This document shows, in pieces, positions 9,831 through 60,528 of a stretch of 64,000 nucleotides of DNA (the first letter of the stretch is position 1; each line of letters opens with the position of its first letter). The translations under genes were made by a program, and so were the position numbers. The notes under the pieces are model-generated. The model was given only the letters and a program-made list of their open reading frames with translations, was not told the DNA's origin and did not search any database. This DNA is from Arcobacter sp. GTDB lineage: Bacteria; Campylobacterota; Campylobacteria; Campylobacterales; Arcobacteraceae. The stretch is from NCBI GenBank assembly GCA_002869535.1, contig PKUK01000003.1, positions 212 to 64,211 on the forward strand. Direction: 5' to 3'.

Positions 9831-11348
9831 TTATTTTGCACTAAAAACAGTTTTAAACTCTTCTAACGCAGATTTTAAATTATCTTCAGTATCTTCGTCT
9901 AATTTTTTCTTAGATTTAATATCATCTAAGATATTTGAGTATTTTTGCTCAATAAAAGCATGTAATTCACTCTCAAATCTAACAACATCAGAAACTGCAA
10001 TATCATTTAAATATCCCTTAGTTCCAGCATAAATAATTACAACTTGTTTTTCAATAACTAAAGGCTTATTAACACCTTGTTTTAATACTTCTACCATTCT
10101 TTGACCAAGTTCAAGTTCTCTTCTTGTACTCTCATCAAGATCAGATGCGAACTGAGCAAATGCTTCAAGCTCTCTATATTGTGCAAGTGATAATTTTAAA
10201 GTACCAGCAACTTGCTTAGTAGCTTTAATTTGTGCAGCTCCACCAACTCTTGATACTGATAAACCAACATTAATAGCTGGTCTAATACCTGAGTTGAAAA
10301 GGTTAGTTTCTAGGAAGATTTGACCATCTGTAATAGAAATAACGTTTGTAGGAATATATGCAGCAACATCCCCTGCTTGTGTTTCAATGATAGGTAATGC
10401 AGTCATAGACCCAGCACCTTTTTCATCTGACATTTTTGCAGCTCTCTCAAGTAGTCTTGAGTGTAGGTAGAATACATCCCCTGGATATGCTTCTCGACCT
10501 GGAGGTCTTCTTAAAATTAATGACATTTCTCTATATGCAACTGCATGTTTAGATAAATCATCATAAATAATTAAAGCATGTTTACCATTGTCTCTAAAAT
10601 ACTCACCAATTGTAACACCTGTATATGGTGCTAAAAATTGTAATGCAGCAGAATCAGCAGCTGCAGCGTTAACTACAATTGTATAATCCATTGCACCAGA
10701 TTCTTCTAATGTTCTAACAACAGAAGCAACTGAAGATGATTTTTGACCAATTGCAACGTAAATACAAATTACATCTTCACCTTTTTGGTTAAGAATCGTA
10801 TCAATAGCAACAGTTGTTTTACCAGTTTGTCTATCTCCAATAATAAGCTCTCTTTGCCCTCTTCCAATTGGAACAAGAGCATCAATTGCTTTAATACCTG
10901 TTTGTAATGGTTCATGAACTGATTTTCTAGCCATGATTCCAGGAGCTTTTTCTTCAACAAGCTTATGCTCTGCTGCTTCAATAGTCCCTTTTCCATCAAC
11001 TGGCTCACCTAATGCATTAACAACTCTTCCAACCATAGCATCACCAACTTGTGTTTCTAATAGTTTTCCAACTCTCTTACAAGAAGAACCTTCTCTTAAT
11101 CCATTACCAGAACCAAGAACAACAACACCAACTGAAGCCTCTTCAAGGTTAGCAGCTAATCCTCTTTCACCATTCTCAAATTCTACAATTTCACCAGCCA
11201 TAATATTTTTAAGACCGTAAACTTGAGCAATACCATCTGCATATGAGATTATTTTACCAGTCTCATTTACATCAACATTTAATTCAAAGTTATCAATTCT
11301 TTCTTTGATGATCGAACTGATTTCATCAGCTTGAATTTTTGCACCCAT
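9831..11348 (-). CDS. atpA: F1Fo ATP synthase alpha subunit
   Basis: Non-catalytic nucleotide-binding subunit of the F1 hexamer. The 505-residue length is typical. It has P-loop GDRQTGKT (residues 171-178), the family signature [17 protein letters not shown] and the arginine-finger region within it. It follows atpH by 21 bases and precedes atpG by 10. Confidence 0.98.
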
Positions 11349-30829: not shown

Positions 30830-30864
30830 TTATTTCCTATTATTCTAAACTACTAAAAATTGCC

Positions 30865-30985
30865 GAGGTATAGATTTTTAGTGCAATTCAAGGCAGAGTA
30901 ATTTCTTTGCGATTGAGCGTACAATTAGTACGTGATTGAGTAAAAAAATTACTCTAACGCAGAAGTGTGCAAAAAGCTATACCTC
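30865..30985. repeat. Structured intergenic repeat, copy A
   Basis: A nested inverted repeat between the flavoprotein gene and mnmE. The outermost stem is GAGGTATAG (30865-30873) with CTATACCTC (30977-30985). Then AAGGCAGAG and CTCTAACGCAGA flank a 9-bp stem GAGTAATTT (30896-30904) / AAATTACTC (30946-30954), with an inner 5-bp hairpin CGTAC (30918-30922) / GTACG (30928-30932). A second copy lies at 58817-58890. Its location just after the mnmE stop suggests a 3' RNA structure or a REP-like DNA element. Confidence 0.7.
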
Positions 30986-30990
30986 TACAG

Positions 30991-32334
30991 CTATTTTCCG
31001 AGGCAGAAGGCTCCAAACATCACATCCAACATCTGGTCATTTTCATATGGCCTTGTTATTAGTGAAATATTCTCAATAGCTTCATGTATATGATGTGCAA
31101 AAAACTCTAACTCACCAGTTTGTAGTGGCATTCTTGATTCTAGTATATGATGTAGTGTTTTTTCCACCGCATCTACTTGTCTTTTAGATATCAAAGTCAT
31201 ATTATCATCATGGGAATTATTATCTAAAATCTTTTCAATTCTTTCAATCAAACTATTAATACTATTTTTTGTACTTAGTTCTATATAGTCATCTTTTAAA
31301 GCAGACTTGTCAAACTTTGATTCCAAATCAATTTTATTTAATACAACTAGTTTTTCTTTATTTTCAATCTCATCTAATATATTTATGATTTTTTTATCTT
31401 CACTATCACAAACTTTTGAATTATCAAATAGTGAAATAATAATATCAGCTTCATCTACTGCACTTAAAGACTTCTCTATACCTATTTTTTCAATTGTATC
31501 ACTAGCTTCTCTTATACCTGCTGTATCAACTATCTTGATAATGTGAGTTCCTATTTTTACTGACTCTTCTATTGTATCTCTAGTAGTTCCTGCAATATCA
31601 CTGATAATTGCTCTATCAAAGTTTAGAAGTTTGTTTAAAAGTGAAGATTTTCCAACATTTGGTTTACCTATAATTGCTACTTTAAAACCTTCTATTAGAC
31701 CTTCTCTTCTTTTACTTGATTCAAGTGTATCTGATAATTTGACAACTATTTTTTCTAACTTTCTCTCTATTTGTTCAAAAATATCTTCAGGTAAATCTTC
31801 CTCTGCATAGTCAATATTAACTTCTGTGTATGCAAGCATAAAAAGTAAATCTTCTCTAATATCATTTACAAAATTTGTAAGTTCACCTTTTAGTTGTCTA
31901 GCCAATAATTTAACGGCATCTTCACTTCTAGCTTCAATAAGTTTTGCTATTGCTTCTGCTTTTGATAAATCTATTTTATTATTTAAAAAAGCTCTTTTTG
32001 AAAACTCTCCTGGATTTGCCATTCGACACCCAAGTTTAATAAGCTCATTTAATATGATGTTTGAAATAGCAATACCACCATGACATTGAAACTCTACAAT
32101 ATCTTCACCCGTAAAAGAGTGTGGATTTTTAAAATAGATTAATAGTGCTTCGTCTATAATTTCATCATTGCTATTATAAACATTTGATAGAGTTGCAAGT
32201 CGTGGTTTTAGGATTTGTTTTTTTGAAAGAGCTAAAGCAAAAGGTAAAGCATCTTTACCACTTACTCTTATTATTGAAATAGAACCAATTCCATTGGCTG
32301 TTGCAATTGCAACAATTGTATCTAGTGAGTCCAT
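30991..32334 (-). CDS. mnmE: tRNA uridine-5-carboxymethylaminomethyl modification GTPase MnmE
   Basis: With MnmG modifies wobble U34 of certain tRNAs. The tetrahydrofolate-binding N-terminal domain starts MDSLDTIVAIATANGIGSI, followed by helical and G domains with G1 GKPNVGKSS, IAGTTRDTIEE, DTAGI and NKID. The C-terminal catalytic motif is FCLGK, a mild variant of FCIGK. The ATG at 32334 is preferred to the TTG at 32340 on family N terminus. It ends the rpmH-rnpA-yidD-yidC-jag-mnmE cluster. Confidence 0.95.
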   Translation of the reverse strand: MDSLDTIVAIATANGIGSISIIRVSGKDALPFALALSKKQILKPRLATLSNVYNSNDEIIDEALLIYFKNPHSFTGEDIVEFQCHGGIAISNIILNELIKLGCRMANPGEFSKRAFLNNKIDLSKAEAIAKLIEARSEDAVKLLARQLKGELTNFVNDIREDLLFMLAYTEVNIDYAEEDLPEDIFEQIERKLEKIVVKLSDTLESSKRREGLIEGFKVAIIGKPNVGKSSLLNKLLNFDRAIISDIAGTTRDTIEESVKIGTHIIKIVDTAGIREASDTIEKIGIEKSLSAVDEADIIISLFDNSKVCDSEDKKIINILDEIENKEKLVVLNKIDLESKFDKSALKDDYIELSTKNSINSLIERIEKILDNNSHDDNMTLISKRQVDAVEKTLHHILESRMPLQTGELEFFAHHIHEAIENISLITRPYENDQMLDVMFGAFCLGK

Positions 32335-32340
32335 AGACAA

Positions 32341-58659: not shown

Positions 58660-58816
58660 AATATCGTTCCTTTTTATTAAAAATATATTTTATACAAAAA
58701 AGTCTTAAATTAGTAGTATAAATAAAATAATTATATTATATTAATAAAATTTAAAAACATGAGATTTTAAAATAAATCCAAAAGATTGATTTTATGAGTA
58801 AGATTTCAAAAGAAAT

Positions 58817-58890
58817 CAAGGCAGAGAAAACTTTATTCGTAGGAGCTTACTGGAGTAAGTGACTAGAAGAAAGTTTTCTCTAACGCAGAG
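58817..58890. repeat. Structured intergenic repeat, copy B
   Basis: It carries the same flanks as copy A at 30865 (CAAGGCAGAG on the left and CTCTAACGCAGA on the right) around an 11-bp stem GAGAAAACTTT (58824-58834) / AAAGTTTTCTC (58870-58880) and an inner 5-bp hairpin CTTAC (58846-58850) / GTAAG (58855-58859). It is located just beyond the 3' end of purH. Stem bases differ from copy A in a paired manner, while GAGC before and GTGA after the inner arms are kept. Confidence 0.7.
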
Positions 58891-58898
58891 TTATGAAG

Positions 58899-58923
58899 AA
58901 AGATGATTATTTAAATCATCTTT
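58899..58923. terminator. Hairpin at the end of purH
   Basis: A 10-bp stem (AAAGATGATT / AATCATCTTT) with a 5-base loop, immediately after the purH stop codon on the minus strand. The T run lies on the plus-strand side, so it may act mainly against plus-strand read-through, or together with the adjacent structured repeat. Confidence 0.5.
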
Positions 58924-60456
58924 TTAGTGTAAGAAATGTCGTTTATTACTAAAATAAAGAGACATACCGTACTCATCCGCCGCTTCTATAATCTCATCAT
59001 CTCTAATAGAACCACCTGGCTCAATCACACATTTCACACCAGCTTCTTGTGCTGCATCAATTGAATCTCTAAATGGGAAGAAAGCTTCACTAGCTAGTAC
59101 TGAACCACTTACATCTATACCTAAATCTTCTGCTTTTCTAAGTGCTGCTTTTGCTGCGTCAACTCTTGAAGTCATACCCATACCAACTGCAACCATAGCT
59201 GAGTTTTTCACGTATACTACACAGTTTGATTTTGTTAAAGATGCTACTTTGTAAGCTATCTACATATCTTTTACTTCTTGAGTAGTCGCTTCTCTTTTTG
59301 ATTTTAGTTCAGAATTTTTAACTTCGTCCTCTTCTACTTTATCAGCATCTTGATAAACAAATCCACCATCAACTATTTTGAAGTTGAATTCATCATTTGC
59401 CATTTCAAGTTTAGATGTTCCTTGTTTGAATAGTTTGATTCTTTTCTTTTTATTTAACTCTTCTTCAGCTTCAGCTGTAAAATCAGCTGCAAATACTACT
59501 TCTAGGAAGATTTCATTCATTTTAACTGCTAAGTCTAAGTCAACTATTCCATTTACAGCAACCACTCCACCAAATGCTGAGATTGGGTCACATTTAAGAG
59601 CTTCAGTATAAGATTCTAAAAGTGTATCTTTGATAGCAAATCCACATGGGTTACCATGTTTTACTATACATACTGCATTGTCATCACCAAATGCTGATGC
59701 TATTTTAGCAGCTCCACTTATATCTCCCATGTTATTAAAAGATGCTTCACCTTTTAGTGTGATAAATTTATTTGATAGGTGTTTATCAAACTCGTATAAT
59801 GCACCTTTTTGGTGTGGGTTTTCTCCGTATCTTGTATCAAATACTTTTTCACCTACGATGAATTGTTTTGCACCCATTCCACCGTTGAATCTTTTGTTCA
59901 TGTAGTTTGCAATCATTGCATCATAAGCAGCTGTATGCTCATATGCTTTTATCATCATATCTCTTCTAAACTCTTGTGTATTTGTGTCATTTTTAAGATT
60001 GTTTAATACTAAATCATAATCAACAACATCAGTTACAATAATAACACTATCGTGGTTTTTTGCAGCACTTCGCACCATCGCTGGTCCACCGATGTCGATG
60101 TTTTCAATAATCTCTTCAAAATCATCTGTTTTTTCAATTGTTGCTTTAAATGGGTACAAGTTTACACATACTAAATCAATACCTTCAACACCTAATTCTT
60201 TCGCTTGGTCCAAATGAGATTGCTTGTCTCGTCTGTGTAAGATTCCACCATGAATATATGGGTTTAGAGTTTTAACTCTTCCTTCAAAACACTCTGGGAA
60301 TTTTGTAACTTCGTTTGCTTCTATTACAGGTATATCTGCATTTTCTAAAGCTTTATAAGTACCACCTGTACTAATTATCTCGTAACCTAATTTTACTAAC
60401 TCTTTTGCAAAATTCTCAACACCACTTTTATCACTAACACTGATTAATGCTCTCAA
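58924..60456 (-). pseudogene. purH: purH, interrupted by in-frame TAG
   Basis: Bifunctional AICAR transformylase/IMP cyclohydrolase, the last two steps of IMP synthesis. It has an N-terminal MGS-like domain ([28 protein letters not shown]), then the transformylase with [25 protein letters not shown] and [17 protein letters not shown] at 59262-59260 (codon 399 of 511) falls between KDM and [12 protein letters not shown], just before the KSN segment of the active site. The frame continues to [12 protein letters not shown] and the end. GAG to TAG would explain it. The preferred start is TTG at 60456, preceded by AGAGGA. Confidence 0.9.
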
Positions 60457-60528
60457 ATTAATTCCTCTGTTATTATATAATTTTTCGAGATTATACAAAA
60501 AAAGTAATTAGTAGTCGCTTTTAAAAAT

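Follow-up and report, generated by a model that had tools for sequence, protein, structure and literature searches.

We assign two structured repeats in a 64,000-nucleotide stretch of an Arcobacter sp. genome (the window), here called copies A and B, to the ERIC (enterobacterial repetitive intergenic consensus) family on the basis of their core sequence and predicted fold. We propose that these repeats and their counterparts in related genomes are probably ERIC-family elements which moved, for the most part, long ago, and which would now be structured 3′ UTRs that set the fate of mRNA 3′ ends. ERIC sequences have been used in strain typing for more than 30 years, and their role is partly known. 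Their occurrence in another phylum, fixed behind the stop codons of housekeeping genes and with a constant loop between changing stems, makes the function of ERIC testable, and does so in a simple setting of single copies, known host genes and one orientation. ERIC-PCR in Arcobacter-type bacteria may also have genuine targets.

Structure and host genes of the two repeats

On the + strand of the window, copy A occupies positions 30865-30985 and copy B approximately 58796-58911. Copy A is a closed palindrome of 121 bp, whose outer arms (GAGGTATAG..TGCAATTC and GAAGTGTGCA..CTATACCTC) enclose the 5′ side of an internal loop (AAGGC, 30890-30894), which is present in nearly all copies, an inner hairpin with an ERIC-type apex (GAGCGTAC..GTACGTGA, 30895-30955) and the 3′ side of the loop (AACGCA, 30956-30961). 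These elements are read on the + strand, while the mRNA sense is the - strand. The span given for copy B is that matched by model R2, described below, at 49.4 bits; on the + strand it holds AAGGC at 58818-58822, an inner hairpin at 58823-58881 whose apex, GGAGCTTAC....GTAAGTGACT, is the ERIC centre, and AACGCA at 58882-58887. A previous reading of the window, made from the sequence alone, had located both copies correctly, with their flanks, the GAGC and GTGA words and the differences between their stems; its account of a repeat pair was sound but understated, and it did not recognise ERIC.

Both copies fold better than dinucleotide shuffles on either strand (DNA fold z-scores of -2.7 to -4.9). 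The outer arms close the palindrome in copy A, but in copy B pair poorly with each other and form a local hairpin on each side instead (window 58796-58924). One such hairpin (AAAGATGATTATTTAAATCATCTTTT, 58899-58924) lies between copy B and the purH stop codon, and this arrangement recurs behind the orthologous gene in two further genomes, G450 and G453. The arm arrangement of copy B was observed behind the orthologous gene in another genus (locus L261), with outer arms 92% alike. Most copies in the genus fold end to end.

The exact flank pair has two matches in the whole genome, which are copies A and B alone; a third occurrence of TTCTAACGCAGA in the window, at position 9861, belongs to an unrelated stretch. 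In relatives the flank words enclose other stems. What is conserved is the internal loop AAGGC/AACGCA, which lies between two stems, and not AAGGCAGAG/CTCTAACGCAGA, because AGAG/CTCT is part of a variable stem.

Copy A is the immediate 3′ UTR of mnmE (30991-32340, - strand, an open reading frame), since the stop codon of this gene (30991-30993) lies 6 nt past the repeat, and this type of placement behind mnmE is common to the window genome (G000), its congeners G001 and G002, and G011 from another genus. Copy B comes directly after the stop codon (58924-58926) of purH (58924-60498, - strand) on the mRNA-sense strand, so that both repeats sit just past the 3′ end of a minus-strand gene, as had been noted. 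The genes here called mnmE, purH, htpG, efp, hypD and ribD are presumably these, the names having been assigned by reading their sequences. The purH frame carries one in-frame TAG near 59262 (- strand, window 59240-59280; ..EVKDM*IAYKV..), which divides it into two open pieces and is either a true nonsense change or a sequencing error.

Relationship to ERIC

Enteric ERIC copies were retrieved from E. coli, Klebsiella, Salmonella, Enterobacter and Rahnella, and the AAGGC/AACGCA loop is found between their stems too. We built one covariance model, R3, from nine enteric ERICs and no other sequences, and another, R2, without enteric ERICs, the training set of which includes copy B and a near-identical counterpart of copy A from G002. 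R3 recovers copy B (33.2 bits, E 3e-6), 13 further copies in congeners (E 1e-11 to 0.01) and a copy in an Arcobacter MAG, and it matches copy A weakly (22.1 bits, 30864-30988). R2 finds copy A at 57.3 bits (E 8e-10, 30868-30984) and, among the enteric ERICs, 5 of 10 loci at E<0.03 in 11 kb, the best at 3e-7. Copy counts vary with model and filter: R3 gives 10 in the window genome and 9 and 8 in two congeners, and structure-aware model matches number 19 in the window genome, 16 in G001 and 11 in G002. The window genome holds about 20 copies, A and B among them; the further covarying copies for which the sequence-only reading had suggested a search do therefore exist in this genome and its relatives.

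The repeats share with ERIC its core sequence and structure, the form of an imperfect palindrome of ~127 bp, and a dispersed, intergenic distribution in many copies, none of the 43 in the genus lying inside an ORF. They resemble the enteric ERIC (also IRU or RU-1; E. coli, Klebsiella, Salmonella, Yersinia) in the loop, in the apex GGAGC-TAC....GTA-GTGAC, in forming a single long hairpin (~125-131 nt in the enteric form), and in having copies that overlap or adjoin stop codons in the same orientation. The window genus differs in belonging to the Campylobacterota, in its AT-rich arms, and in that neither the TATAC terminal repeat nor the TA duplication was recovered among its copies; the arms of copy A contain TATAG/CTATA, yet pairing extends beyond into GAGG/CCTC. 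Nearly all copies in the genus are stop-adjacent and old, whereas enteric ERICs occur in both settings. Among relatives with conserved flanks we found no clean empty site. The Vibrionaceae ERIC (~103 bp) is a short form, which the Photobacterium copies, having the same loop, appear to resemble, whereas the window copies carry the ERIC apex and are long-form elements.

Rfam gave no match at gathering score in the window, and the tested elements remained blank up to E 5. We know of no loop or apex that the Correia/NEMIS and RUP elements have in common with ERIC. These MITEs are also small palindromic intergenic elements able to affect mRNA, but their ends and hosts differ from those of the window repeats (PMC2229807). 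Integron attC sites were considered on account of the word TCTAAC and then dismissed, since the conserved bases make up an internal loop inside a long hairpin rather than R boxes at the foot of one. The twister and twister-sister ribozymes have similar loop words, but there is no Rfam match and their parts do not fit.

Covariation of the stems

Every true element follows one plan, in which an outer stem, C[AAGGC], an inner stem, [AACGCA]G and the returning outer stem succeed each other, usually with the ERIC apex GGAGC-TAC...GTA-GTGA on the inner hairpin. Across 33 diverse elements, standard pairs fill 80.9% of pair cells, against 54.8% after shuffling; cells with a double change number 325 against 136, and the covariation score is 0.619 against 0.177, falling to 0.14-0.26 when partners are shifted by 1-3 columns. 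AGA/TCT beside the loop is invariant in this set through the choice of hits; in copies found by the models the loop-adjacent pairs vary (GGA/TCC, GGT/ACC, AAA/TTT, GCA/TGC) and the loop stays constant. At the nrdB site the inner arms differ among genomes yet pair, in 0.815 of cells against 0.64 with arms exchanged (0/2000). The idea that paired base changes between copies A and B mark a selected structure is thus upheld on a wider set of elements. These comparisons support strong covariation of the stems, and point to selection on pairing, whether as RNA or as a DNA palindrome, between which covariation does not separate.

Position behind stop codons and proposed role

Gene context was read from the ORFs in the stretches around each copy. 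Of the 43 copies in the genus, 42 begin 0-45 nt past a stop codon; their orientation is always the same, and 10-46 nt separate stop and loop (one of the 42 has no computed loop distance). Counted as distinct gene loci the figure is 21 of 22 (binomial P ~5e-6). Placement behind a stop codon, in the same orientation, is likewise seen for 25 of 27 copies in other genera of the family, and the opposite side of the element follows no stop-codon rule. Read on the - strand, the elements of the window genus are the 3′ UTRs of mnmE, purH, nrdB, gyrB, uvrB, rho and other genes. The genes ahead of the copies are mostly long housekeeping genes, with NCBIfam matches of their C-terminal parts to Mfd, NrdB, UvrB, GuaB, SbcC, GyrB, FabI, Dxs and Rho. 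An equal placement and orientation is seen in four of nine enteric ERICs (L194-L197; dgoD, a Rahnella ABC-transporter gene, cusC and ybhI), and De Gregorio et al. (2005) reportedly described one common orientation ('B') for stop-adjacent ERICs of Yersinia. The Yersinia ERIC has an orientation-dependent effect on mRNA stability through RNase E (reviewed in PMC2229807; PMC10969869).

Such a fixed place and direction behind stop codons strongly suggests that the elements act on mRNA ends, a role that the sequence-only reading had listed among several. Closeness to stop codons could in part reflect an insertion preference in a compact genome, which leaves the single orientation unexplained. We infer that the selected form is RNA rather than DNA, and that its effect would be on mRNA ends, through termination, decay or stability. 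In the model that we favor, short palindromic units, mobile but non-autonomous, would have spread long ago, and those which landed behind stop codons in the present orientation would have been kept. In the mRNA the - strand would form a long, two-storey hairpin just after the stop codon, made of an outer stem, the loop UGCGUU/GCCUU and an inner hairpin. This hairpin may block exonucleases or offer a site for an RNase, with ribosomes at the stop codon acting as a gate, and the invariant loop is probably where a conserved factor binds or cleaves.

Copies with A/U tracts at their base may in addition help to end transcription. In the genus the outer stem is often bounded by AAAA, following the stop codon, and by UUUU, and T reaches 0.62-0.74 at positions 21-24 after GCCTT, compared with ~0.4 beyond; this modest enrichment of U at the base of the hairpin suggests that some copies also help termination. 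These ends, together with the location at gene 3′ ends, are what would be expected if the repeats were plain intrinsic terminators with an ERIC-like core. We consider this rather unlikely, as termination does not call for a hairpin 100-130 nt in length whose internal loop and apex are invariant, the AT-rich closing stem is late to form, copy A lacks a U-tract, and a separate hairpin accompanies copy B.

Age and mobility

Most copies in the genus are old and common to several species: the nrdB site is common to ten genomes, the purH site to the window genome, G450 and G453, and the htpG site to three genera. At mnmE, the window genome and G001 are 97% alike in the outer arms of the element, 61% in its inner arms and 87% in the coding end of the gene. 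The same pattern holds for uvrB and for nrdB (G001/G013) and is reversed for fabI, from which it follows that outer stem and inner hairpin change as separate modules. The suggestion of a small non-autonomous transposable unit was right in kind, given that ERIC counts among the MITEs, but has to be set against this age and this sharing among species.

It is decidedly unlikely, in our view, that the repeats are purely selfish ERIC-like MITEs, with insertion next to stop codons tolerated or targeted and a loop that serves transposition and not the host. The palindromes of Photobacterium, Saprospiraceae and Flammeovirga would fit such a description, being short, recently multiplied, numerous and near-identical, with clear terminal repeats, TA- or CTAG-like flanks and no stop-codon rule. 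In the family of the window genus, by contrast, copies have diverged, lie behind the same genes across species and genera, and have kept their pairing after substitution, and tolerance alone does not predict one orientation. Of the marks of mobility (recent identical copies, target duplications, a partner transposase), some were seen in Saprospiraceae and Photobacterium and none in the window genus, and no partner transposase was identified.

The Photobacterium palindromes have a short inner stem and ends TATACCAAT..TTGGTATA, TATACC ends also being seen. The terminal repeat ATACCAATCTGGATAAG is present ~197 times in G060, the genome of Photobacterium pectinilyticum that holds locus L015, against 74 matches of the loop-element model, and therefore other elements share these ends and probably the transposase too; no autonomous partner element for this terminal repeat was identified. 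Contigs of Saprospiraceae MAGs (L014, L025, L029, L049, L058, L065, L069, L071, L074 and others) hold ~30 palindromes of almost the same sequence, delimited by TGCCTCGGGCA and CTAG flanks and in many cases located at contig ends, which represent a recent burst of a mobile relative with the same loop.

Taxonomic range

The range of ERIC has been given as Enterobacteriaceae and Vibrionaceae (PMC10969869; PMC2267715), and our literature search found no paper on ERIC-like repeats in Campylobacterota. With strict filters, which make the counts of the large searches lower bounds, R3 is positive in at least 42 of the 101 genomes from the window's family, covering at least 13 of its 20 genera, but in only 2 of 114 genomes sampled from across the class to which the Photobacterium genome belongs; a broader model is positive in at least 45 of 298 genomes of the phylum. 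In other Campylobacterota, as well as in Desulfobacterota, Bacteroidota and Gammaproteobacteria, the loop is combined with different stems and different ends. On these model matches, the published range is too narrow. More tentatively, it is possible that ERIC is at root an old 3′-UTR RNA element of several phyla and not an enterobacterial one. A widely conserved factor that works on mRNA ends close to terminating ribosomes would then read its invariant internal loop, the mobile forms with many copies (enteric, Vibrio, Photobacterium, Bacteroidota) would be offshoots, and inner hairpin and outer stem would be modules replaceable independently at one locus, as at mnmE, uvrB and nrdB.

Convergence of unrelated palindromes that share short ERIC motifs by chance has to be weighed in so wide a survey, as such motifs are short and palindromes arise often. 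A scan of 84,980 species genomes gave at least 118 stretches with the loop-and-flank words, and since ~58 chance matches are expected for a 19-base pattern in 257 Gb, a two-stem test was applied to each hit. It was passed by 96 of 114 distinct exact-motif elements, among the matches listed, against 6.5% of random controls, and was failed by each of the seven hits that we attribute to chance matches in coding sequence (Gemmobacter, Flavivirga, Saccharimonadia, Herpetosiphon, Lachnospiraceae, Flavobacteriaceae and Pseudanabaena). The reciprocal model matches moreover run across all 131 positions, apex and loop stand at matching spacing, and the orientation to the stop codon is shared, all of which makes convergence very improbable. 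A viral origin was also considered and rejected; four of the five hits on viral contigs were put through the two-stem test, and all four fail it.

The earlier suggestion of a REP-like element is not supported: although REP/RAYT systems too comprise small structured repeats outside genes, and the window genome and G001 have one Y1 domain match each (that of the window genome with internal stops), the motif differs, no linked Y1 transposase is present here, ERIC models match the repeats, and G002 has no PF01797 (Y1) match despite at least 11 copies, so that movement by a REP-associated Y1 transposase is scarcely credible, and this enzyme is not the mover of the repeats.

Two further arrangements were observed in the survey. 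A second, shorter element type of 97 nt with the same loop lies behind a urea-type ABC transporter ATPase gene (L171, L183, L186), with one site common to all three species of the window genus. Elements also occur in adjacent pairs, at G058:C30:25677-25878 and G208:C1:2011402-2011603, once in opposite and once in the same orientation, which suggests composite or tandem forms.
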